A DNA stretch of 35,749 nucleotides from positions 1 through 35,749 of the forward strand of contig PKWU01000029.1 of NCBI GenBank assembly GCA_003132145.1. Direction: 5' to 3'. The position numbers were made by a program, and so were the translations under genes. This document shows positions 4,850-35,194 of this stretch, piece by piece. The notes beneath the pieces are model-generated. The model ran no database searches. It saw only the letters and a list, made by a program, of their open reading frames with translations, and had not been told where the DNA came from. The number at the start of each line of letters is the position of its first letter. Within the stretch, counting starts at the first letter, position 1. This DNA comes from Granulicella sp. (GTDB lineage Bacteria > Acidobacteriota > Terriglobia > Terriglobales > Acidobacteriaceae).

Positions 4850-7822
4850 TCAGCGAGGGGTGAGGATGAGGGTGTGGGCGATGGTGGGCTGGATGGCGGC
4901 GGGGGTGAAGGGGAGCGGGTAAGTGGTGCCGCGCAGCCAGGATTGAAATTGGTCCATGTAGTGTGGACTGGCGGGGTTGCCGGACTGGCCGAGGGCGAGG
5001 TTGAGGGTGGTGCGGTCGGGGTCGCTGAGGTCGGCGGTGAATCGTTCGGAGGGGCCGAAGGCTTGGCCAATCTGCTTGACCGTTGTGCTGTCGCCACTAT
5101 TGGACTGCGGGCCGGTTCCGGTGGGTACGCCGAGCAGGAGGCGGGCCAGCAGGGTTGCGTGGGAGAAGATGGGGTGGTCGATCTGGAGCGGGAAGGCGCT
5201 TCCCTGCTGCCATGTGGCGAGGTTGCGTGGGGCGTGGGCTTGGCGCAGGCCGCGGGCCACGACGGCGGCGAGGAAGTCGTCCCACGTGGCGAAGCCGGAG
5301 GGGAGCCAGCGGGCGGGCGTGTGGGTGATGAGTTGCTCCTCGACGCTGGAGCGCTCGCCCCAGGTGTAGAGCTGCCAGAGGTTGGCGGCCTGGGCTGCGT
5401 CGGCGCGCAGGTTTTTGACTTTGGGGAGGGCTGTGCCCTGCGCGAGCGGCGCGGCGGCCTCGGGGGCGAGTTTGGGGATGAGCAGCATGGGCCAGAGGGC
5501 GGCGCGGGCGGCGTTGACGATGGCAGGCGCGCTGGCGTTGGCGTCTACGCTGCCATTCCACTTGCGCAGGATGTCGGCGGCCTGGTGCAGCGTGGGGTCG
5601 TTCTTCAACGGGCCGATGGCGTGGTCGATGGAGTAGGCGAGGCGCTGGGCGAGGATGAGGTCCGGCTCGGAGGTGACGTCATTTTGCAGGGTGAGCATGT
5701 CAGCCGGGGTGAGCGGGCGGCTGGGAGCCAGCGTCTCGCCGGGCAGGGCTGCGGATGAATCTTTCCCTGGGCTGGCTGATATTCCTGGGCTGGCCGATAT
5801 TCCTGGGCTGAGTTCAGAGAGTTTTACGGGACTGGCTTCCAGAATTTTGTAGATGCGCTCGGTGCGGTAGGGGGCCATCCAGTTCAGCGTGATGGGGAAG
5901 CGGTAGCCGTCGGGGGTGACGCGGGCATTGGCTGTGGCGAGGACGCCGTCCGCGGGGTCGAAGGTCTGGGGAAGCTGGTCGAAGGGGATGTAGCCTGCCC
6001 ACTCGTGCGCGGCAGCGTCGGGCGCGGTGGCGTCGGTGGGGACGGGCGAGAGCGGACTGGGATTGGCGGCGTCTCCGCGAATGGGGATTCGGCCCAGGGC
6101 GTGGTATGCGATGTGGCCCTGGTCGTCGGCGTAAATGAGGTTCTGCGCGGGGCCTCCCCAGGCGGCGAAGGCAGCGAGCATGGAGGGCCAGTCGGAGGCC
6201 GAGTCGACGGCGAAGAAGGGCGCGGTGAGGTTGGCGGGGTCGTAGATGGTCCAAAGGAGACTGAGGGAGCGACGTTCGGTGGGAAAAACGCTGGATACGA
6301 TGGGAGTGTCGATGTCTCCGTGGCGGGTGAGGGGGACGTCGAGGATGACGTCTGTGCTGCCTCGAACCTGGATGACCTCGGTCTGGTAGCGGACGGGGAG
6401 CCATCCGCCGGAGGGGGCCTGGTACTCGGCGCCGGAGGAGGTGCCGCGGGTATGCTCGATGATGAGGTCCTGCACATCGGCGCCGAGGTTGGTGAATCCC
6501 CAGGCGACGTGGTCGTTGTGGCCAGCGATGACGAAGGGCGTGCCGGGGAGGGTCACTCCGGCGGCGTGGAAGCCGGGCTGCGGTGCGGGGTTCGTGGCTT
6601 GCAGGTCTGCCTCGTACCAGAGCTCGGGCGCGGCGAGCGAGAGGTGCATGTCATTCGAGAGCAGCGGCTTGCCCGAGGCGGTGCGGGAGCCGGAGACGGT
6701 CCAGGCGTTGGAGCCGGCGACGCAAGTGGAGCAGGGAGCATGGAAGAGGGCGAGGGTCTGATTGAGAGAGAGAAGGTCGGATGGAGAGATTGTGGAGGCT
6801 GAATCCCACCCATTCCGCAAAAAGCGCGAAATGGATGGGGCACCCGGCGAAATGGATGGGGCACCCGATTCTTCGGTTGGATGGGAGGGCCGGTGGAGGC
6901 GCGATTGCGACTCGTCGAGGGGAATGTCGTTGAACTCAGGCTGGGGCGCGGAGACGTCGGGCATGGGCTGGCCAGGGTAGTGGTCGCGCCAGGATCCGGT
7001 GGGGTAGAGGTCGGCGATCAGCTCCGGCGAGAGATGGGCGGCGAGGGCCTCGCGCGCGAGCTTCTGCGGGAAGCCGGTGGTGAGGTCCTGAAAGAGGGCG
7101 AGCTCGACCAGGATGGAGTCGCGCGGCGTCCACGGGGCGGGCTGGTAGGCGAGCAGACGGAACTCGATGGGTAGGTGGCCGCGCTGGGCGGCGATGGATG
7201 CGTTCACGCCGCGCGCGTAGAGATCGAGCCAGTGGAGCTGGTCGGCGGGCAGGACGGCGATGGCGCGGTCGGCGGCGGCGCGCAGTTGCAGGGTGCGCTG
7301 CAGGCGGTCGTGCTGCAACATGGGGCGGCCAAGAATGGCGGCAAGCTGGCCGGCGGCGTGGCGGCGCAGCAGGTCCATCTGCCACAGGCGGTCCTGTGCG
7401 GTGACGTAGCCCTGCGCGAAGACGAGGTCGTCCATGGAGGCGGCGTGGATGTGGGGCACGCCGCGCGCGTCGCGGGCAACCGTGACCGGCGCGGCAAGGC
7501 CGTAGACGGCGAGCGAGCCATCGAGCTGCGGCAGGTTCTGGCGCATTGCATTACGGATGAAGTGGCGTCCGGTGAAGAGAGCCGCGGCGGCGAGACCGGC
7601 GAGGAGCAGAAGAAAGAGGGCGAAGAGGCGCAGCCGGCGGCCCCAGCGAGAAGGAGTGGGCGGGGGTGCGAGCGCGGCGGCTGGTGCGGCGGGACGATCC
7701 GGCGCGGGGTCTGCTGCGCTGCTGCCTTCCACCTGGCGCACGAATCCCCGGTAGCGCAGTTCGGCCTTGCTGGGATTGGCGGAGGGGGTGGTCTGGCTGG
7801 AGTTTGGATCGTCGCTGCTCAT
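4850..7822 (-). CDS. penicillin acylase family protein (Ntn-hydrolase)
   Basis: A 990-residue precursor of the penicillin amidase (S45) family: exported amidases that self-cleave into alpha and beta subunits, with a new N-terminal Ser as nucleophile. The basic RRLRLFALFLLLLAGLAAAALF segment near residues 62-84 is a signal anchor. The alpha-chain signature near 110-165 includes DARGVPHIHA and FAQGYVTAQDRLWQMDLLRR. The catalytic Ser is Ser371 in AGSNAWTVSG. NDMHL and an SRFTADLSDPDRT-like C-terminal stretch also fit. Two in-frame low-complexity inserts are unusual: about residues 320-340, encoded by a family B repeat, and an SPGISA tandem near residues 670-690. It starts 4 bases after the stop of the CPBP protease gene, so the two are translationally coupled. 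Substrate is unknown; acyl-homoserine lactones, beta-lactams and N-acyl amino acids are family substrates. Confidence 0.88.
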   Translation of the reverse strand: MSSDDPNSSQTTPSANPSKAELRYRGFVRQVEGSSAADPAPDRPAAPAAALAPPPTPSRWGRRLRLFALFLLLLAGLAAAALFTGRHFIRNAMRQNLPQLDGSLAVYGLAAPVTVARDARGVPHIHAASMDDLVFAQGYVTAQDRLWQMDLLRRHAAGQLAAILGRPMLQHDRLQRTLQLRAAADRAIAVLPADQLHWLDLYARGVNASIAAQRGHLPIEFRLLAYQPAPWTPRDSILVELALFQDLTTGFPQKLAREALAAHLSPELIADLYPTGSWRDHYPGQPMPDVSAPQPEFNDIPLDESQSRLHRPSHPTEESGAPSISPGAPSISRFLRNGWDSASTISPSDLLSLNQTLALFHAPCSTCVAGSNAWTVSGSRTASGKPLLSNDMHLSLAAPELWYEADLQATNPAPQPGFHAAGVTLPGTPFVIAGHNDHVAWGFTNLGADVQDLIIEHTRGTSSGAEYQAPSGGWLPVRYQTEVIQVRGSTDVILDVPLTRHGDIDTPIVSSVFPTERRSLSLLWTIYDPANLTAPFFAVDSASDWPSMLAAFAAWGGPAQNLIYADDQGHIAYHALGRIPIRGDAANPSPLSPVPTDATAPDAAAHEWAGYIPFDQLPQTFDPADGVLATANARVTPDGYRFPITLNWMAPYRTERIYKILEASPVKLSELSPGISASPGISASPGKDSSAALPGETLAPSRPLTPADMLTLQNDVTSEPDLILAQRLAYSIDHAIGPLKNDPTLHQAADILRKWNGSVDANASAPAIVNAARAALWPMLLIPKLAPEAAAPLAQGTALPKVKNLRADAAQAANLWQLYTWGERSSVEEQLITHTPARWLPSGFATWDDFLAAVVARGLRQAHAPRNLATWQQGSAFPLQIDHPIFSHATLLARLLLGVPTGTGPQSNSGDSTTVKQIGQAFGPSERFTADLSDPDRTTLNLALGQSGNPASPHYMDQFQSWLRGTTYPLPFTPAAIQPTIAHTLILTPR
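5762..5815. repeat. 18-bp tandem repeat inside the acylase gene
   Basis: The unit CTGGGCTGGCTGATATTC (second copy with one base change) is present twice, followed by a partial third copy. It encodes a repeated PGISAS hexapeptide in the acylase and keeps the frame open because 18 is a multiple of 3. Confidence 0.6.
6805..6866. repeat. family B repeat inserted in the acylase coding region
   Basis: CCCACCCATTCCGC followed by GCGAAATGGATGGGGCACCC and a second partial GCGAAATGGATGGGGCACCC copy. It matches the layout of the intergenic copy at 3733-3775. It is translated in the acylase as a Ser/Pro/Gly-rich loop without a stop. Confidence 0.55.
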
Positions 7823-26585: not shown

Positions 26586-27854
26586 CTATCGCCCGGTGCG
26601 GAACCGGCAGTGTACAAGCCGCGCGGCGTATTTCCTGGCGAGACGCGCGACACGCAACGGATAGTAGAGAAAGAAAAGTCTTTCCGGCAGAAGAAGCCGC
26701 TCCAGTTCCTGGTCCGTCGGGGCCTTGAGCAACGCAGCAAGATGCCGCACTTTGTCCCAGCTCCGTTCCGCCATGCGTGCGTTGAATACGGTCAATTCCC
26801 AGCTATGCGGCTCACTCGGAGGAGTGCGCATCAGCCGCAGGGTCACTTGTCTCGCCCTCGCCTGAACTGCCTGCTCCGCGCGGGCCCGTTGCAGGATGCT
26901 TTCGGGAACCGGCGCCTCAAGCAACCCGTGCGCCAGCGACAACCCCAACAGCAGCGGCCTCATGCATCCCGCCTCTTCCGCCAGTTGCAGAACGACATCC
27001 CATGCCAACGGCTTTCGCACCAGCCTGGCGACGTCCCCCAGCCACTGAAGACGCGACCACATGTGTTTCGTGCCGTGGACGCAGAGAAACAACAACAGAG
27101 CTTCCGGTGAAAGGCATGGGACTTCCCTGCCCGCAATCCTGGTCCGGCCCAACGAGCGCCACAGCATCTCCGGTGCGATGCGGAACGGAAGATGCGCAGG
27201 GCCAGTCTCCCATTGCAGGTCCACATCCGCCATGCGCACACGGTGGAAGAACAACTCGCAGTTGAGGCGCAGCAGGACACGCAGCGGCAATCGCTCCATA
27301 TTTGCGCCGAGCGCGTATCCCTCCTGCGCGAGGACCCGCAGCGCGCCCGCAACGTCCCCGCTTCGCACCAGCAGGTCCAGATCGGAAGACGGCCGCAGCG
27401 CCGGATCGGGATAGAGCGATTCGGCCATTACGGGGCCTTTCAAGGGCACGACGGCAATGCCGTGGGCTGCGAAGGCATCCAGCAACGCGAGCAGTTGGGA
27501 GGTGAGAACCAGGTTCTGCCGGGCGGAACCGTGGCAGACGTTGCGCAGCCGGCTGGCAACGTCCGGCGGCACGAGATCGGGAGATGTCTCCGTTACGACG
27601 TGGAACAGGACCGCTGCCAGACCATGAAACTCCGCAGCCTCGACCAGCGCATCCCAGTCCATGACCTGATGGACCAGTTGGCGTATGCGCGCGCCATCCA
27701 CGCCGACGCCGCGGGCACAGTAGAACAGCAATTGGCGGTCCGGGCTTCGCGCTGCGTAGTCAGCCACGGCATATGCAACGCTGTCAGCCACGGCGAAGCG
27801 GGTCCCCGCCCGGTCCAGCCCACGCGGCCTGGGCGAAGACAATCCAGCGCACAT
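26586..27854 (-). CDS. nucleotidyltransferase-fold protein (PF14907 / NTP_transf_5-like)
   Basis: 422 residues. The middle contains VVPLKGPVMAESLYPDPALR followed by PSSDLDLLVRSGD, the glycine-Ser/Asp-x-Asp hallmark of the nucleotidyltransferase family often found in RiPP and polysaccharide loci. AADVDLQWE-type Asp (here MADVDLQWE) and FLCVHGTKHMWSRLQWLGDVARL further on also fit. The first 60 residues (MDWDALVEAAEFHGLAAVLF) match the helical part seen ahead of this fold. The start is not secure: no ribosome site precedes the ATG at 27854, and GTG codons shortly downstream are alternatives. It is divergent from the peptide operon, sharing a 393-base control region. Possible role: adding a nucleotide or phosphate group to the peptide or a partner; its activity is not known. 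Confidence 0.72.
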   Translation of the reverse strand: MCAGLSSPRPRGLDRAGTRFAVADSVAYAVADYAARSPDRQLLFYCARGVGVDGARIRQLVHQVMDWDALVEAAEFHGLAAVLFHVVTETSPDLVPPDVASRLRNVCHGSARQNLVLTSQLLALLDAFAAHGIAVVPLKGPVMAESLYPDPALRPSSDLDLLVRSGDVAGALRVLAQEGYALGANMERLPLRVLLRLNCELFFHRVRMADVDLQWETGPAHLPFRIAPEMLWRSLGRTRIAGREVPCLSPEALLLFLCVHGTKHMWSRLQWLGDVARLVRKPLAWDVVLQLAEEAGCMRPLLLGLSLAHGLLEAPVPESILQRARAEQAVQARARQVTLRLMRTPPSEPHSWELTVFNARMAERSWDKVRHLAALLKAPTDQELERLLLPERLFFLYYPLRVARLARKYAARLVHCRFRTGR

Positions 27855-28247: not shown

Positions 28248-30239
28248 ATGAGTTATTTGGCATTTGGATCTTTCTCAAGTCGGATTTCGCAACTTAATCA
28301 GGTCTCTCGCTGCTGCGGCGGCAACGGCATAACAACTCCACAATCTCAGGCAATCAGGCGCGGCAGCGTGGCCCTTGCGTTCGCGGGCGTTGCGCTTCTC
28401 GCGGTGGCCAGCCTTCCGGCGTTTGCACAGGCGGGTCCACCGGTAACGACGGGCCGTCCAACGGACTGGACGCACCACCACCTGGTCTTCTCTGGTCCCG
28501 GCCCGGCGGCGGATGAACGCGCCAAAGGGAACGATTTCCATTCGCAGGACGTGCGCAACAGCACCCGCTACGCGCTGCAGCAGATGAGGCGGGACCCATC
28601 GCGGCGCCCCAGCGTCTCGCCTGGCAGCGGGCCGCGGGTGGATTCAACCTCGACCATGCACAAGGATTGGAGCGAGAACCTGAGCACGGGCCTGGTGAAT
28701 CCCAACACCTTCCCGGCGAAGTATTCGTTCAATACCAACGCCTACAGTTGCGCCTCGGACTACGTCGTTTACCCGACGGGGGCCTCGGGATCAGGCACGA
28801 CGCAGGCGACAATCTTCGCATACCATGAGCTCTATGGGACCTCCGGCCCCTCCGGCACGGGTTGCGGGACCGGGACGAGCGGTTCGGCCGTCCCCAAGGC
28901 TTACTGGGCCTACAACACCGCCTATCCGCAGGGCTCGACCACGGCCGATGGCAGCAAAATCACGACCTCGCCTGTGCTCTCCCTGGCCGGGGACCAGGTG
29001 GCGTTTATCCAGGTCAACAGCAGCAATGTTGCCAGCCTGGTGCTGCTCAAGTGGGCCACCAGCACTTCGGTCGTTGCGCTGGACACGACTACGACCAATG
29101 TGACCGTTACGAACTATCGCGCCTGCACCGCTCCGTGCATGACCAGGATCACTCTGAACGGGTCGCCCAACGACACATGGTCCGCGCCGTTCTACGAGTA
29201 CTACGACGATGTGCTGTACGTTGGGGATAACAGCGGCAAGCTGCACAAGTTCAGCAACATCTTCCTGAGCGGGACACCGGCCGAGACAACAAGTGGTTAT
29301 CCGGTCACCCTCAGCACAACGGCTACGGACATCGCGTCGCCAATCTACGATTACACAACGGGCAAAGTCTTCGCCGGCAGCGCAAATGGCGTTCTTTATG
29401 CTGTCACCGGCAGCACGGGTGCCGTAGCCGCCTATTCAAAGACCCTGACCGGTACCCCCTTATATGGCATCTACGATGCTCCTCTGGTGGACTCCAATGC
29501 AGGCAAGGTGTACGTCTTCGTCGAAGACACGGTCGCCCAGACATCCGGCTGTAAAACCGCCGGGTACAACTGCGTCTACCAATTTGCCACTTCGTTTACC
29601 GGTAGCGGCACCGCTGTGGGGACAAGCGAACCCGTGGGAACGGGTAGCAGTGGCACTGCCGGGCACCATTATTTCTTCTCCGGCGCCTTTGACAATATCT
29701 ATTACTCGTCCAACAGCGGGACGGCCGGGAACCTCTATGTGGTCGGGAATACCGGAACCGCGGCTGCGGGATCTCTTTACCGCATTCCCATTTCGAGCAG
29801 CGGGGCGATGGGTACTCCTGCCGCGACGGTAATCGAGCGAGCTTCGAATATGTATGTATACCCGTCGCCGGTAACCGAGTTCTGCAACAACGGCACAAGT
29901 GCGTGCGCCGCCAGCGGCACGGCGACTACCGCAGGCACCGACTATATCTTCTTTTCCGCAGAAGATGTATCGCTGGGCGGCTGCCAGCAAGGCACAGGCA
30001 ATGGATGCGTGTTGTCCTATATTGTCAGTTCTGGCGCCCCAGTCTATTCAAACTATTTGTCGTATTCCCATAATTCCAATTGTTTCGGGACTGGTGGAAT
30101 CGTTATCGACAATGCGATCCCGGCTGGCACGGAGGCTGGAGCTTCACAGGTGTACTTTATGATACTCAACGGGAGTACAGCGAACCTATGTGGAGGCACG
30201 GGCAATGGCAGTCTCTCAGGCATCCAGTTGGCGCAGTAG
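28248..30239 (+). CDS. secreted beta-propeller-like protein of unknown function
   Basis: 663 residues from the ATG at 28248, chosen for its strong AGGGAGG; an in-frame TTG at 28056 is a longer, weaker option. An export signal lies at about residues 38-60 (RRGSVALAFAGVALLAVASLPAFA) behind an unusually long 37-residue leader with CC, perhaps a Tat-less late signal. The mature part begins Pro/Gly-rich and basic (QMRRDPSRRPSVSPGSG) and continues with Gly/Ser/Thr-rich beta strands and repeats such as ASPIYDYTTGKVFAGSANGVLYAVTG, reminiscent of PQQ/quinoprotein-like propeller blades. Several Cys pairs (C-x-T-A-P-C; SGCKTAGYNC; CQQGTGNGC) suggest disulfides. It is the first gene of the operon: the peptide gene starts 46 bases after its stop. 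It may be the exported effector or receptor of the system; its role is unknown. Confidence 0.65.
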   Translation: MSYLAFGSFSSRISQLNQVSRCCGGNGITTPQSQAIRRGSVALAFAGVALLAVASLPAFAQAGPPVTTGRPTDWTHHHLVFSGPGPAADERAKGNDFHSQDVRNSTRYALQQMRRDPSRRPSVSPGSGPRVDSTSTMHKDWSENLSTGLVNPNTFPAKYSFNTNAYSCASDYVVYPTGASGSGTTQATIFAYHELYGTSGPSGTGCGTGTSGSAVPKAYWAYNTAYPQGSTTADGSKITTSPVLSLAGDQVAFIQVNSSNVASLVLLKWATSTSVVALDTTTTNVTVTNYRACTAPCMTRITLNGSPNDTWSAPFYEYYDDVLYVGDNSGKLHKFSNIFLSGTPAETTSGYPVTLSTTATDIASPIYDYTTGKVFAGSANGVLYAVTGSTGAVAAYSKTLTGTPLYGIYDAPLVDSNAGKVYVFVEDTVAQTSGCKTAGYNCVYQFATSFTGSGTAVGTSEPVGTGSSGTAGHHYFFSGAFDNIYYSSNSGTAGNLYVVGNTGTAAAGSLYRIPISSSGAMGTPAATVIERASNMYVYPSPVTEFCNNGTSACAASGTATTAGTDYIFFSAEDVSLGGCQQGTGNGCVLSYIVSSGAPVYSNYLSYSHNSNCFGTGGIVIDNAIPAGTEAGASQVYFMILNGSTANLCGGTGNGSLSGIQLAQ

Positions 30240-30284
30240 GCAATGGAAGCGGGCCCTCAGCCCAGTACTAACAGGACAACAACC

Positions 30285-30449
30285 ATGAGCAAGAGTGAGC
30301 AAGCCAACTCCACGCGGGCACAAACTATCAAGGCCCCTTATCAGAAGCCGGCCTTTCGCTACGAGAGTGTATTTGAGACCAGCGCGCTGCGATGCGGCAA
30401 GGTACAATCCACCCAGTCGCAGTGCCGCAGCAACCGGAAGTCTTCGTAG
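30285..30449 (+). CDS. candidate RiPP precursor peptide
   Basis: 54 residues. The N-terminal part is polar and Lys/Ser/Thr-rich (MSKSEQANSTRAQTIKAPYQ). The middle, KPAFRYESVFETSALRCGK, resembles precursor leader/core blocks with a K-P and a VFE...SAL-C pattern that I associate with PqqD/HPrK-type loci in acidobacteria and deltaproteobacteria, though I cannot check this. Two Cys (37 and 47) lie in the C-terminal third, which ends RSNRKSS, so the last two residues are Ser. There is no signal peptide. A CAGGA about 9 bases before the ATG is a modest ribosome site; an upstream in-frame ATG at 30243 would add 14 residues. It sits between the secreted protein and the peptidase gene. Too short for confident homology; identity rests mainly on context. 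Confidence 0.6.
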   Translation: MSKSEQANSTRAQTIKAPYQKPAFRYESVFETSALRCGKVQSTQSQCRSNRKSS

Positions 30450-30504: not shown

Positions 30505-30984
30505 ATGGGGGGACAGCATCCAACGCAACCGGACGGAGAACTTCTCGACGAAGCCAAACACGACCTGGCCGCGGAGGTGCTTCGTCAGTTTGGAGAGGTG
30601 CGGTTGAAGGTCAACGGAGCCAGTATGCTGCCCTCCGTCTGGCCCGGAGACGTCGTGACCGTTCGCCGTCGCAGCCCTGCCGAACTGCTCCCCGGACGGA
30701 TTGTCCTGTGCTATCGCGACCAGGGATTTGTAGCCCACAGGATGGTCGGCAGACAAGGCGATTGCCTCATCACTCGCGGCGACTCGCATCTGCGGGAGGA
30801 CCCCCCGTTCGGCGACGAGGAGGCCCTGGGAGAGGTGGTTTCCATCCTCCGCAATGGCCGCCCGGTCGATCTCACTCCCGTCTGGTGGCATCGCATCTTC
30901 TCCTGGACCCTGCGCCATTCGGAGCTGTGTACCCGCATGGTGCTCCGCCTGCGCAGGTCCATCAACCTATCGTGGGCCGGCTGA
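30505..30984 (+). CDS. S24/S26-type serine peptidase
   Basis: 159 residues. VNGASMLPSVWPGDVVTVRR holds the G-x-S-M-x-P motif with nucleophile Ser40, and VAHRMVGRQGDCLITRGDSH supplies His78 in the position used by archaeal/SipW-type signal peptidases (Ser-His rather than Ser-Lys), followed by RGDS. No N-terminal membrane anchor is visible; a weakly hydrophobic C-terminus (PVWWHRIFSWTLRH) might contact the membrane. The start is supported by AAGAGG 10 bases upstream; a frame open to 30295 overlaps the precursor gene and is not favoured. Its stop overlaps the next start (TGATG). In this setting it probably cuts the leader from the peptide, but LexA-type regulatory peptidases share the fold. Confidence 0.78.
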   Translation: MGGQHPTQPDGELLDEAKHDLAAEVLRQFGEVRLKVNGASMLPSVWPGDVVTVRRRSPAELLPGRIVLCYRDQGFVAHRMVGRQGDCLITRGDSHLREDPPFGDEEALGEVVSILRNGRPVDLTPVWWHRIFSWTLRHSELCTRMVLRLRRSINLSWAG

Positions 30985-31799
30985 TGGGACCCGCCATCGC
31001 ACAGGACGTGCTGGTCGAGATCGGGGCGATGCCGGTCCTGGTACGCACCATTAGTCCGGAGTTTCATCAGATCCTCCATGAGCGATACGGCGGCTTCGTG
31101 AACTCCTCCGCGCAGCCGGTCTTCGAGTTCGAAGTGGAAATCGTTCCGCCCGGCAGTATTCCAACTGCAATCGGCGACGACGAAGACCTGAGCGTGCGTT
31201 TTGAAGTAGGCCGCTGGGTGCTGGAGCGCGGCGACTTCCACGCGGAGCTGGACCCCTCTCTGCGCCACGGGCGCATCTGGCAGTCCGCCACTCCGTATGC
31301 CATTGACGCGGCCTTCCGCATCGTTCACTCGCTGCTTCTCGCCAGGCAGGGCGGGCTGCTGGTTCATGCCGCCAGCGTGGTGCGCAACGGCCGCGCGTTC
31401 CTGTTTGCCGGAGTCTCCGGCGCGGGCAAGACCACCATCTCGCGGCTCGCGCCACAGGATGCCACCCTGCTGACCGACGAGATCTCCTATATCCGCCGCG
31501 AAGCTGACGGCTATGTCGCCTACGGCACTCCCTTTGCCGGTGAGCTTGCAAAGCCCGGTGAGAATGTGCGCGCGCCACTAGCCGCCCTGTATCTCCTCGC
31601 CCAAGGCCCGGAGAACCGAATCGACCCTGTCGCCGACGCGGACGCTCTGCGCGCGGTGCTGCAGTGCGTGCTCTTCTTCGCGCATGATTCCGAATTGGTT
31701 GGCCACGTCTTCGACTCCGCTTGCCACCTGGTGCAGCATGTTCCGGTGCGCCGCCTCACCTTCGTTCCCAATTCTCGCGTGTGGGAGTTAATCGTATGA
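30984..31799 (+). CDS. HPr-kinase-related protein (HprK-like)
   Basis: 271 residues. The C-terminal half is an HprK/P-fold nucleotide-binding domain: LLVHAASVVRNGRAFLFAG (with a conserved His128), Walker A GVSGAGKTT (143-151) and TLLTDEIS with Asp165-Glu166, then GTPFAGELAKPGE. The N-terminal half, from MGPAIAQDVLVEIGAMPVLVRT, is unlike the HPr-binding domain. No PTS proteins are nearby, so it is not a carbon-catabolite HprK. Homologs in lasso peptide loci phosphorylate the C-terminal Ser of the precursor (established for paeninodin-type kinases). Here the candidate peptide ends in Ser-Ser, which makes that role worth considering. The start overlaps the previous stop by one base (TGATG); its own stop overlaps the next start (ATGA). 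Confidence 0.75.
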   Translation: MGPAIAQDVLVEIGAMPVLVRTISPEFHQILHERYGGFVNSSAQPVFEFEVEIVPPGSIPTAIGDDEDLSVRFEVGRWVLERGDFHAELDPSLRHGRIWQSATPYAIDAAFRIVHSLLLARQGGLLVHAASVVRNGRAFLFAGVSGAGKTTISRLAPQDATLLTDEISYIRREADGYVAYGTPFAGELAKPGENVRAPLAALYLLAQGPENRIDPVADADALRAVLQCVLFFAHDSELVGHVFDSACHLVQHVPVRRLTFVPNSRVWELIV

Positions 31800-32092
31800 G
31801 TCCCGTGTATATCGCTCGAACCAGTGAAGTCGCCGCGCGCCTGCTCGGCAGCGAGATGATGATCATGTCCGCCCGCGATTCGACGCTCTTCAGCCTGAAT
31901 GAGACGGCGACGGCGATCTGGCAGGCGGCCAACGGCGTCACTCCGCTCTCCGAGATCGTGGAGCGGAGTCTCTGCGCTCAGTTTGATGTTGACCCGGCCG
32001 CCGCCTTGCGCGATGCCGAAGAGCTGGTGGAAGGATTGGCGAAGCATGGAATCCTGAAGCTCTCGGACCAGCCGATTGTGGAGACGAAATGA
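31796..32092 (+). CDS. PqqD-family peptide chaperone
   Basis: 98 residues with the PqqD fold: SPVYIARTSEVAARLLGSE, a short DSTLFSLNETATAIWQAANG (the strand-turn-helix hallmark with L-N-E/T-A) and ALRDAEELVEGLAKHGILKL. PqqD-type domains (RRE) bind the leader peptide and deliver it to the radical SAM enzyme. It overlaps the HprK-like gene (ATGA) and the following radical SAM gene (ATGA), so all three are translationally coupled. A freestanding PqqD next to a SPASM enzyme is the classic arrangement of PQQ and related peptide systems; no pqqA, B, C or E set is present here. Confidence 0.85.
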   Translation: MSPVYIARTSEVAARLLGSEMMIMSARDSTLFSLNETATAIWQAANGVTPLSEIVERSLCAQFDVDPAAALRDAEELVEGLAKHGILKLSDQPIVETK

Positions 32093-33234
32093 TCGGACTG
32101 GTCCAGGAGATGAGCGACAAGGCCCAGCGGCTGGGCATTCCGCTCGCCGTTCAGCTCGACCTGACTTATCGCTGCAATGAGCGCTGCGTGCATTGCTACC
32201 TGGACCACGACGACCACGGCGAGATGAACACCGCCGAGATCAAGGAGCTGCTGGATCAGATGGCCGCGGCTGGGGTCTTCTTTCTGACGCTCAGCGGCGG
32301 CGAGATCATGATGCGGCGCGACTTCTTCGAGATCGTCGAGCACGCGCGCCGGCTCTCCTTCTGCGTAAAGCTCAAGACCAACGCGGTGATGGTCCGGCGG
32401 AGCGAGGCAGACCGGCTCCAGGCGCTTGCGCTGGACTCGGTGCAGATCAGCGTCTACTCGCACCGCGCCGAGGTGCATGACGCCATTACCAAGCTGCCGG
32501 GGTCGCTGAAGCGAACCATCGCGGCGGTGCGTCTTCTGGTCGAGCGCGGCGTCAAGGTGATCTTCGCCAACGTGCTGATGCGCGAGAATTTTCAGGATTA
32601 TCCGGGCGTCCAGGCGCTGGCCGCCGAAGTTGGCGCAGAGTTTACCATCGACCCGACCATTACTCCCATGATGGATGGGGACCGCTCCATTCTGAACCTG
32701 AATATTGAACGCGCCCAGCTACAGCAGGTCTTCCGCGATGCCTCCATTCTGGGCACCAGCCCGGAGGAGTTCTGCGCCCCGCCCGGCGGGCCTCCCGCAG
32801 CCGAGGACGCCCAGAAGATGTTGCCATGCAGCGCCGGCCACACCTTCTGCTACGTCTCGCCGTACGGCGATGTCTATCCCTGCGTGCAGTTTCCTCTGCC
32901 GACCGGCAACGTTCGCGCCAGCCGGTTCCTTGACATCTGGAAGCACTCGCCGCAGATGACTGAAGTGCGCTCGATCACCATAAGCGATCTGCCGGTCTGT
33001 TCCACCTGTTCGCATGGCGGCGGCTCCTGTACGCGATGCCCGGGCCTCGCCTACATGGAGGGCAACATGCGCGGCCCGTCGAGTCAGGACTGCGAAAAAT
33101 CCTTCGTTCGCACGGGTGTGGAGACCGCGGGCATGTTGATTCGCCGCGAGGCGCGTTCGATCGCCGGACTGGTGCAGATTCGCAGCGCCGCCAGCCCGGA
33201 CTCAAGGGCCGAATCTCTTCAGAATTGTCTATAA
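32089..33234 (+). CDS. radical SAM/SPASM peptide-modifying enzyme
   Basis: 381 residues. The radical SAM motif is CNERCVHC (Cys29, Cys33, Cys36). LTLSGGEIMMRRDFFEIVEHAR is the Gly-rich SAM-binding region. A C-terminal SPASM domain carries the Cys array CSAGHTFCYVSPYGDVYPC, then PVCSTCSHGGGSCTRCPG and DCEKS, for two further iron-sulfur clusters. SPASM enzymes install thioether, C-C or C-O crosslinks, or cleave precursors. It is coupled to the PqqD gene (ATGA) and closes the operon. Which residue it attacks in the 54-residue peptide is unknown: Cys37 and Cys47 would suit thioether bonds, Tyr and Phe would suit ring crosslinks. The stop is 13 bases before the tRNA fragment at 33248. Confidence 0.88.
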   Translation: MIGLVQEMSDKAQRLGIPLAVQLDLTYRCNERCVHCYLDHDDHGEMNTAEIKELLDQMAAAGVFFLTLSGGEIMMRRDFFEIVEHARRLSFCVKLKTNAVMVRRSEADRLQALALDSVQISVYSHRAEVHDAITKLPGSLKRTIAAVRLLVERGVKVIFANVLMRENFQDYPGVQALAAEVGAEFTIDPTITPMMDGDRSILNLNIERAQLQQVFRDASILGTSPEEFCAPPGGPPAAEDAQKMLPCSAGHTFCYVSPYGDVYPCVQFPLPTGNVRASRFLDIWKHSPQMTEVRSITISDLPVCSTCSHGGGSCTRCPGLAYMEGNMRGPSSQDCEKSFVRTGVETAGMLIRREARSIAGLVQIRSAASPDSRAESLQNCL

Positions 33235-33451: not shown

Positions 33452-35194
33452 ATGCCTCCTTCCGCGCGACGCAACGCTCTTCTATGCGCTCTGTTCGTCG
33501 GCATCTGCATCCTGGTGGCCTACCCGGTTTCAAGCGATGGTTATCTTGACGATTTCTCATACGCCAGGACAGCGCTGGAATTCGCTCGCACGGGTCACAT
33601 TGTCTATAACGGTTGGACGGCCCCCACCGAAGGTTGGATGATTGTCTGGGGCGCCCTGTTCATCAAACTATTCGGCTTTTCCTTTAATATCCTGCGCTTG
33701 TCGATGTTGCCCATCGGGGTGGGGGCCGTCTATCTCTTCCATCAAATTCTGACACGCTTCGACGTGTGCCAGCGCAATGCATCCATCGGTGCTCTCACCC
33801 TGGGACTCTCACCAATGTTTTTCCCCTTGGCCACATCCTTCATGACCGATGCGCCCTGTCTGTTCGTGCTCTTGCTCTGCATCTACATGTGCCAGCGGGC
33901 CGTCGCATCGGGCACACCCCGGGAAACCTTGCTTTGGCTCCTCTCCGCAGCACTGCTGAATTTAATCGGGGGATCAGTACGTCAGGTCGCATGGTTGGGC
34001 GCACTTGTTATGGTTCCGTCCACTGGTTGGCTGTTGCGCAAACGGCGTGGCGTGTTGCCGGCTTCCCTTGCGGCGGCTTTCGTTAGCTTGATCGGCATAG
34101 CGGCGCTAATGCATTGGTTCTTGAGTAAACCGTATATGGCCGCAGACGCTGCCACGCAATTCGGCCTTGTCCATTCCTACTCGGCGAGAACCTTGGTTGA
34201 GGAGTTGGCTAAGCTGTTTTTGTGTCTTCTGCTCTTCGTCCTTCCGCTTCTCGCGGCTTGGTGGCCCGCAATGGGTCGACTAACCCGTTGGTCGTTTCTC
34301 CGCGGGTCTGTCGTGTTTGGCCTGATGCTCTTCTGCCTCAAAGATGCCGCTCATCGGGGGCGGCTATTCGTCTGGCTTGCCCCCTGGCTCTACTGTGTCG
34401 TTAGTAGAAATCCTCTCGCTTTCGGCCCGGTACCGGTCGATCAGCTGTTCGGCAGTTCGGTCGCCGTTCCCAAATGGCTGGGGGTAGCCCTAGCCGTGGT
34501 GACAGTTGGGTCTGCCTTCATCCTGGCCGAGCAACTCATCGCCAAGAAGGCACTTTGCAAACCTGAAGCAAACGGACTTTCCGGCGCGGAGAGATCAGCC
34601 CTCTGGATTCTTGGCCCATTCTCATTCGCTTACTTATTGCTTCTGTTTCCCCGAGCGGAGATGTTTGGCCTTTTTGACAGATACGCCCTCTGTCTCATGC
34701 CTCCGGCTATCGTACTCCTACTCCTCATATATCAGCGGTCGATTGGCCCCGCCGTTCCCGTCGTATGCATTATCGTGCTCGCCATCTTTACGGTCGATGC
34801 AGTGGGAGATACACACGACTACTATGCGGACCAGCGTGCTGGCGACCTGGCCATACAGGAGCTTGTTGCCGATGGCATACCGAGAACCTCTATCTCACAA
34901 TCCATCAACACCGACATGTGGCTTCAGGTCAACATTGCTGGTCATGTGCAAAATGAAGAAGCATCGGCAGATAATCAGCCATCGAGCCCCGCATTGCCGA
35001 AACATGTTCCTGCGGTTCCGTGTCCCACCAGAGTGGCGCAATGGGCACCCGTCGTAAAGCCAGATCATTATGTAGTCATTTCGCCAAGTCTCTGCCTCCA
35101 GCCTTCCAATTACCCGCCGCTGAATTATCGAGCATGGTTACCCCCCTTTCATCGCAGCGAGTATATCGAGCTGCCGAAGTATATCCGCCAATAG
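33452..35194 (+). CDS. GT-C-fold membrane glycosyltransferase (ArnT/GT39-like)
   Basis: A 580-residue polytopic membrane protein with about eleven hydrophobic segments. The first loop begins SSDGYLDDFSYARTALEFAR, an Asp-Asp motif right after the first membrane helix, which in GT39/GT83-like (PMT_2) transferases binds metal and the polyprenyl-phosphate sugar. FMTDAPCLFVLLLC in the second loop also fits. The C-terminal 130 residues form a soluble domain rich in Pro and polar residues. The start lacks a good ribosome site. Composition is less GC-rich than the surrounding operons and the gene lies alone between two tRNA-Asn fragments, so it was probably brought in by an integrative element. It would glycosylate an envelope component, not necessarily the peptide made upstream. 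Confidence 0.7.
   Translation: MPPSARRNALLCALFVGICILVAYPVSSDGYLDDFSYARTALEFARTGHIVYNGWTAPTEGWMIVWGALFIKLFGFSFNILRLSMLPIGVGAVYLFHQILTRFDVCQRNASIGALTLGLSPMFFPLATSFMTDAPCLFVLLLCIYMCQRAVASGTPRETLLWLLSAALLNLIGGSVRQVAWLGALVMVPSTGWLLRKRRGVLPASLAAAFVSLIGIAALMHWFLSKPYMAADAATQFGLVHSYSARTLVEELAKLFLCLLLFVLPLLAAWWPAMGRLTRWSFLRGSVVFGLMLFCLKDAAHRGRLFVWLAPWLYCVVSRNPLAFGPVPVDQLFGSSVAVPKWLGVALAVVTVGSAFILAEQLIAKKALCKPEANGLSGAERSALWILGPFSFAYLLLLFPRAEMFGLFDRYALCLMPPAIVLLLLIYQRSIGPAVPVVCIIVLAIFTVDAVGDTHDYYADQRAGDLAIQELVADGIPRTSISQSINTDMWLQVNIAGHVQNEEASADNQPSSPALPKHVPAVPCPTRVAQWAPVVKPDHYVVISPSLCLQPSNYPPLNYRAWLPPFHRSEYIELPKYIRQ

Follow-up and report, generated by a model that had tools for sequence, protein, structure and literature searches.

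A conserved peptide with an invariant C-terminal serine, encoded beside an HPr-kinase-like kinase, a radical SAM enzyme and a secreted beta-propeller in Granulicella

An open reading frame of 54 codons that ends in Ser-Ser and is followed by an operon with an HPr-kinase-like gene raises the question of whether it is a gene at all and, if so, whether its product is a RiPP precursor that is phosphorylated on its last residue outside a lasso peptide system. The original prediction for this locus had proposed such a phosphorylated radical SAM peptide. We analysed it in a window of 35,749 nucleotides (the whole stretch of Granulicella sp. DNA under study), in which the following features were placed:

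26586-27854, minus strand: NTP_transf_5 nucleotidyltransferase-like protein, possible accessory (PF14907, E 1.4e-58)
28248-30239, plus strand: secreted beta-propeller protein, proposed partner (co-occurrence; predicted propeller fold)
30273-30276, plus strand: AGGA, candidate ribosome-binding site of the peptide gene
30285-30449, plus strand: gene of the 54-aa precursor peptide (conserved open reading frame)
30339-30356, plus strand: Y19-QKPA-F24, a YxxPx[F/L] leader motif
30378-30389, plus strand: T32-S-A-L35, proposed leader cleavage T-x-A / L (conserved pattern)
30393-30401, plus strand: C37-G38-K39, conserved block
30423-30425, plus strand: C47
30444-30446, plus strand: C-terminal Ser54, proposed phosphorylation site
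30505-30984, plus strand: S24/S26-type serine protease, signal-peptidase-like, candidate leader peptidase (sub-cut-off family matches)
30984-31799, plus strand: HPr-kinase/PEPCK-fold kinase, candidate peptide Ser kinase
31796-32092, plus strand: PqqD-type RiPP recognition element (PF05402, E 3.9e-15)
32089-33234, plus strand: radical SAM/SPASM maturase (PF04055, E 3.8e-21; PF13186, E 6.4e-11)

The peptide gene and its operon

The peptide gene runs from an ATG at 30285 to a TAG stop ending at 30449, begins 45 bp after the end of the propeller gene and encodes MSKSEQANSTRAQTIKAPYQKPAFRYESVFETSALRCGKVQSTQSQCRSNRKSS (54 aa). Judged from its 8-nt spacer to the ATG, the AGGA at 30273-30276 could be the ribosome-binding site; an alternative upstream ATG at 30243 (68 aa) is disfavoured, since the AGGA fits the later ATG and the homolog sequences were taken from comparable starts.

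Homologs were collected from 111 loci, namely L001 (peptide search), L002-L031 (kinase search) and L032-L111 (radical SAM search; 80 of the 117 encoding a relative); L001 and L002 are the window itself, and as the collections overlap, some places are counted twice. A tblastn match to the peptide is present in 98 of the 111 loci. Among the 13 loci without such a match, L028, L049, L059 and L073 begin inside the operon, and neither tblastn nor a pattern search found a peptide in L009, L027, L056, L057, L065, L087, L088, L092 and L096 (L027 and L096 being apparently one place). Of 948 usable pairs, which share sequences and are thus not independent, 859 have a dN/dS ratio under 0.5, and the median is 0.35; between the window peptide and its homolog in L004, we counted 24.8 synonymous changes over 36.0 sites and 22.2 nonsynonymous changes over 126.0 sites. 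Given these matches and the low dN/dS, the open reading frame is genuine and under purifying selection, and a chance or non-coding frame is ruled out. The original prediction had supposed that the frame is coding and kept at this position in related loci, and both points are borne out; the residues it had read in the product (K21-P22, V29-F30-E31, C37, C47 and S53-S54) are likewise all in place.

In Acidobacteria and some Proteobacteria, homologous peptides lie upstream of an operon for a protease, a kinase, PqqD and a radical SAM enzyme. The gene is kept in many soil bacteria, and the presence of the cluster in a named strain, Granulicella mallensis X5P3 (locus L055), makes tests feasible. 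In the window, four tightly spaced genes follow the peptide, with the last three junctions overlapping by 1, 4 and 4 bases. Gene order was counted in the 67 of the 80 radical SAM loci that offered enough upstream sequence: the order peptide-S26-HprK-PqqD-radical SAM is exact in 52, the peptide is present in 60 (58 placed by the architecture script, plus L043 and L067), and in 7 the operon is found with no recognisable peptide. The operon is conserved over many genera, and 36 of the 67 loci hold a homolog of the nucleotidyltransferase-like gene. Two operons that lack the kinase have another PqqD-like protein, distinct from the first, ahead of the peptide (L076:2092-2547 and L099:4426-4791). Downstream of the operon, the window encodes at 33452-35194 a protein that matches PMT_2 weakly and below cut-off (PF13231, E 2.9e-4). 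This protein is probably unrelated, because it has a tblastn match in just one of the 111 loci (L068).

The PqqD, radical SAM and SPASM domains pass the Pfam cut-offs; the protease and the kinase match known families below cut-off only. The PqqD protein is the sole PF05402 match found in the genome search, and the CX3CX2C cysteines of the radical SAM protein (C29, C33 and C36) are kept in 103 of 104 homologs. The best NCBIfam match of this enzyme is the mycofactocin maturase, below cut-off, and NCBIfam models gave no match to the precursor peptide. An anti-phage system was considered and rejected: PADLOC matched the radical SAM protein to viperin models only (best E 2.2e-16), which we took as general radical-SAM similarity. 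The protease scores below cut-off against TIGR02228 (E 3.4e-6, 27 bits; cut-off 51.85) and PF00717 (E 8.9e-4, 19.4 bits; cut-off 23.3). Its residues S40, H78, D93 and D99 are kept in 74 of 74 homologs and include the Ser-His-Asp set of S26B, a pattern which we take to be that of Sec11-type (S26B, Sec11/archaeal) signal peptidases. A phmmer search with the protease returned one match, which we judged meaningless.

Four of the 98 peptide rows were dropped (L003 and L079 are frameshifted, L033 is cut by the contig start and L074 holds an unknown residue), and the remaining 94 gave 81 distinct complete sequences, window included, with a median pairwise identity of 45%. Y19, P22, F30, C37, K39, C47 and the last-residue Ser are invariant in all 81; E27, A34 and L35 are each kept in 80, and G38 in 76. 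Hence, the two Cys residues and the terminal Ser that the original prediction had singled out are conserved in every homolog compared. The residue that follows YxxPx is F in 73 peptides, V in 4, L in 2 and Y in 2, and the block resembles the leader motif of lasso precursors, whose role is described for YxxPxL in PMC10368454; the binding of the leader by B1 (PqqD-like) proteins is described in PMC5067487.

Around the proposed cleavage site, all 81 peptides hold T, V or I at -3, A or S at -1 and L or V at +1. Signal-peptidase-like cleavage follows a rule of small residues at -3 and -1. The conserved pattern suggests that the leader is probably cut after A34, giving a core of about 20 residues (L35-S54), and a cut at this point, upstream of C37, would place the C-G-K block inside the core. 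This block had been proposed to lie just before the core; its strong conservation stands, but its position is likelier to be within. The two invariant Cys residues are compatible with a thioether formed from a core Cys, in the manner of sactipeptides and ranthipeptides.

The terminal serine and the kinase

The terminal Ser is invariant although the tail after the last Cys varies from 6 to 9 residues. Parsimony on a radical SAM FastTree, which took in 80 of the 81 loci, counted 34 changes at the penultimate residue, 13 in tail length and 0 at the last residue; thus, the Ser remains terminal however the tail varies in length. Three of the dropped rows (L003, L033 and L074) still end in Ser. A 30-row peptide profile, used for a distant search across the phylum, yielded 11 distant peptides in other families (e.g., MKKPYEKPAIVHTEKIEARAVSCSKSNDACGTGPLTS), all of which end in Ser and 10 of which carry A/T/S-R-A before the first Cys; since all 11 profile matches ended at or before position 51 of 58, short of the Ser, these peptides were not found through it. 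Among 33 further loci listed from a search of 298 genomes of the order, many of them identical to earlier ones, 32 have a peptide that ends in Ser, and the exception (L127, genome G012, contig C29) is a degenerate copy whose frame reads on and lacks both the second Cys and the terminal Ser.

Several loci from distant families of the phylum differ in layout. In L131:5652-11171, the gene set is reordered (nucleotidyltransferase, HprK, PqqD, radical SAM, peptide, S26), and a gene at 6203-7618 looks by eye like a B12-type radical SAM protein. L132-L139 encode a distant peptide subfamily (MKKxYEKPxIxHTExxEARAVxCxK...S) with several peptide copies directly after genes of secreted proteins that, by eye, are unlike the propeller; in 6 of these 8 loci, the radical SAM or kinase profiles had no match within the examined stretch.

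The adjacent HprK-like gene, which the original prediction had paired with the peptide, is genuine. In the kinase motif H128-G143-G146-G148-K149-T150-D165-E166, the residues H128, G143, G148, K149, D165 and E166 are kept in 96 of 96 homologs and T150 in 95; G146 falls below the 95% line. The motif reported for BsfK is H148-G163-G166-G168-K169-S170-D186-D187 (PMC10368454); compared with it, the spacing from the Lys to the acidic residues is one shorter here, S170 is replaced by Thr and D187 by Glu. The predicted model (pLDDT 90) has the HprK/PEPCK fold, matching PEPCK with Z 15.3 (rmsd 4.1, 237 aligned) and L. casei HprK/P (1kkl) with a Foldseek E of 8.5e-5. A phmmer search of PDB sequences with the kinase returned mostly designed Armadillo proteins, which we judged an artefact because most lacked an individually significant stretch and because the fold comparison differs.

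Peptide and kinase occur together. In each of the 298 genomes of the order, at most 8 kinase, about 16-21 peptide and 4 propeller candidates were scored, and in each genome of the phylum sample about 16-21 peptide and 6 kinase candidates, so the gene counts below are minimum values and a gene scored as absent may in some genomes have been missed. At a kinase threshold of E<1e-50, both genes occur in 52 genomes, the peptide only in one, the kinase only in three and neither in 242, i.e., the strong kinase is found in 52 of 53 genomes with the peptide and 3 of 245 others (Fisher 2.8e-53, uncorrected for relatedness). The one peptide genome without a kinase match, G249, is 87% complete, and the three strong kinase-only genomes comprise one in which the locus is cut by a contig end (G248, L028), one with no peptide (G233, L027) and one with a partial match (G165). 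At the looser threshold of E<=1e-8, 64 genomes match, 52 of them with the peptide; 9 of the other 12 matches are weak. In five loci (L063, L076, L089, L099 and L111), the peptide has its terminal Ser and its operon includes no kinase gene; all 15 peptide-bearing genomes examined, including these five, hold the kinase. In a sample of 396 genomes of the phylum, 109 have a kinase at E<=1e-15, and they include all 14 that bear the peptide (Fisher 7.6e-9, uncorrected for relatedness).

According to a review, the residue that PadeK phosphorylates in its lasso precursor is the C-terminal Ser, described as extremely conserved in kinase-bearing lasso clusters, and PsmK acts likewise, with PsmN, annotated as a nucleotidyltransferase, required for a hexose on the phosphoserine (PMC9266682). 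By analogy, the kinase of the window would act on Ser54. Another possibility within the same RiPP pathway is that the kinase targets an internal Ser or Thr, or another protein, and that the terminal Ser serves recognition, processing or binding. A precedent is BsfK, which is reported to phosphorylate a lasso core at Ser3, the precursor itself ending in Asp (PMC10368454), and the five peptide operons that keep the terminal Ser without a kinase gene of their own also speak for it. However, among the other hydroxyl residues, T32 is kept in 72 of 81 peptides and a Thr at position 43 in 60, none but the Tyr of YxxP being invariant, and the Ser follows the C-terminus as the tail length shifts. We therefore regard an internal or foreign target as unlikely, and a kinase that acts on the terminal Ser as the preferred reading.

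A secreted beta-propeller linked to the peptide

The gene that ends just upstream of the peptide encodes a secreted protein whose model (pLDDT 70, pTM 0.78) is a beta-propeller. The original prediction makes no reference to this gene or to those of the protease and the nucleotidyltransferase-like protein. Its best VIA matches are Cake8 (Z 28.7), YxaL (Z 26.6) and BamB (Z 25.6), which we take to be eight-bladed, and it also matches tetrathionate hydrolase; YxaL, BamB and tetrathionate hydrolase lie at Z 24-27. C168 and C206 are among its invariant residues. Many members of this family end in AVQASQSALQ- or AVKLTQSGLQ-like sequences; the window protein ends in GIQLAQ.

A profile of 24 of these secreted proteins, searched against the 298 genomes at E<=1e-30, found the propeller in 55, namely in 50 of the 53 that carry the peptide and in 5 of the 245 that do not (Fisher 3.6e-47, uncorrected for relatedness). 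By genus, hand-counted, it occurs in 16 of 19 genera with the peptide and 3 of 51 without (Fisher 3.2e-10). For the proximity counts, two fragments of a single G279 peptide and the second propeller fragments of G042 and G249 were merged, leaving 76 peptide matches and 94 propeller genes, which were set against 57 strong kinase matches. For 26 of the 76 peptides, no strong kinase match lies as close as 3 kb; 15 of this group are at most 4.5 kb from a propeller gene, and in 14 cases the distance is no more than 801 bp. Contig ends included, no propeller gene lies within 4.5 kb of 11 of the 26 kinase-distant and 20 of the 50 kinase-near peptides, and 48 of the 94 propeller genes have no peptide within the same distance. 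In a close relative (G279, contig C60, L188:788-5583), a tandem array of propeller, peptide, propeller and frameshifted peptide stands ahead of S26, HprK, PqqD and radical SAM.

The peptide is thus usually inherited with a secreted propeller, which suggests a modified peptide working with a partner protein. In a tentative extension of this idea, which we put forward with little confidence, the phosphorylated, radical-modified peptide would be a dedicated partner of the propeller (a ligand, a prosthetic group or a folding tag), and a single maturation operon would serve several co-duplicating peptide-propeller pairs per genome. Alternatively, the peptide might give rise to a cofactor or prosthetic group of the propeller, as PQQ does. 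The co-occurrence of the two genes, the resemblance of the propeller model to YxaL, BamB and tetrathionate hydrolase, and the sub-cut-off mycofactocin match of the radical SAM protein are in line with such a cofactor, but the core has no conserved Tyr or Trp, its conserved residues being L, C, G, K, C and S, and a shared propeller fold is no proof of function; we consider a peptide-derived cofactor quite improbable. The linked secreted propeller offers a handle on the purpose of a phosphorylated RiPP; the functions of such tailoring steps are called unresolved in the review PMC9266682.

A proposed pathway and its relation to known systems

The reading with the best support is a radical SAM peptide that is phosphorylated and encoded in an operon of non-lasso type, because the open reading frame is conserved and under purifying selection, the terminal Ser and both Cys residues are invariant, the kinase co-occurs with the peptide and a search of the genome for a lasso B2 protease gave no match. 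The comparative part of the original prediction is thereby upheld; its phosphorylation and radical chemistry are what we infer. We consider it likely that the peptide is a non-lasso RiPP precursor whose C-terminal Ser is the kinase target, whose core is modified by the radical SAM enzyme, whose leader is removed by the S26-type protease and whose product is linked to the propeller. The reactions, their order, the cleavage site, export and the role of the product would, in our proposal, be as follows. The PqqD protein would bind the leader through YxxPxF and present the peptide, and the kinase would phosphorylate Ser54 in the manner of the PadeK-type kinases of lasso systems. The radical SAM/SPASM enzyme may alter the core around C-G-K...C, near C37 and C47, where a Cys crosslink is a guess. 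The protease would then remove the leader, probably after T-S-A34, and free the core L35-S54; the nucleotidyltransferase-like protein may decorate the phosphoserine, and the product would act with the neighbouring secreted beta-propeller outside the cytoplasm.

That the peptide is a small unmodified regulatory or structural protein which merely shares the operon is very improbable, given its invariant RRE-type leader motif and Cys pair and a PqqD and radical SAM operon that is conserved over many genera. A lasso peptide built by unusual machinery can hardly be credited: YxxPx[F/L], the PqqD/B1 protein, the HprK-like kinase, the nucleotidyltransferase-like gene and the C-terminal Ser are all found in kinase-bearing lasso clusters, but the B2 cysteine protease family (PF13471) has no match in the genome of the window (96% complete; the control matched in 2 of 14 genomes), the three matches to the Asn-synthetase-like cyclase family (PF00733) lie on contigs C34, C77 and C11 and the window on C2, and the columns after the first Cys of the 81 peptides hold no conserved Asp or Glu ring acceptor (core positions 7-9). 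Hence, the description of the operon as non-lasso is sustained. Residue 36 would be position 1 in lasso numbering; 61 of the 81 peptides have S or A there, so the first ring residue alone would be no exclusion of a lasso.

The reviewed literature describes C-terminal Ser phosphorylation of RiPP precursors by HprK-like kinases for lasso peptides (PMC9266682), and in the open-licence PMC literature we found no paper whose title or abstract describes the present operon. With the paeninodin-type lasso systems (PadeA/PadeK, ThcoK, SyanK, PsmK/PsmN), it has in common a PqqD-like B1 protein, an HprK-like kinase and the conserved C-terminal Ser; moreover, the pseudomycoidin cluster has a gene annotated as a nucleotidyltransferase and the window an NTP_transf_5 gene. 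Unlike these systems, its cluster lacks both a B2 protease and a lasso cyclase; instead, it has a radical SAM enzyme and an S26-type protease, as well as two invariant Cys residues in the peptide and a linked secreted propeller. BsfA/BsfK of Bradymonas sediminis is similar in its near-identical kinase motif and in the boost that BsfK receives from an RRE, a model for the PqqD protein here, but differs in its core target Ser3, its terminal Asp and its lasso enzymes. Because this type of kinase, the leader motif and the C-terminal Ser here accompany a radical SAM enzyme rather than lasso enzymes, the kinase-RRE-leader module appears to be portable between RiPP classes.

Among the radical SAM/SPASM peptide systems (SkfB, PqqE, MftC, GeoRSP and SynChlorMet), the SPASM-type enzyme is shared, several have a PqqD partner and SynChlorMet also has an HprK-like protein (ScmC); they differ in that the NCBIfam matches here are far below cut-off and in the linked S26-type protease and propeller. 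Membership in SynChlorMet was rejected on the scores for ScmC (42.8 bits versus 125), ScmD (17.1 versus 100), ScmE (96.1 versus 400) and ScmF (61.7 versus 400). The PQQ system consists of a peptide, PqqD, a PqqE-like enzyme and a secreted PQQ-dependent propeller dehydrogenase, and the marks of the cores are Glu-Tyr in PqqA and a C-terminal Val-Tyr in MftA. No such PQQ or mycofactocin mark was found in the 81 sequences, which have no conserved Tyr after residue 19 and end in Ser. The present system is thus like PQQ biosynthesis in its peptide, PqqD, PqqE-like enzyme and propeller and differs from it in the kinase and in the lack of a conserved core Tyr; taken together, it looks like a radical SAM peptide served by a lasso-type kinase module and paired with a secreted protein.
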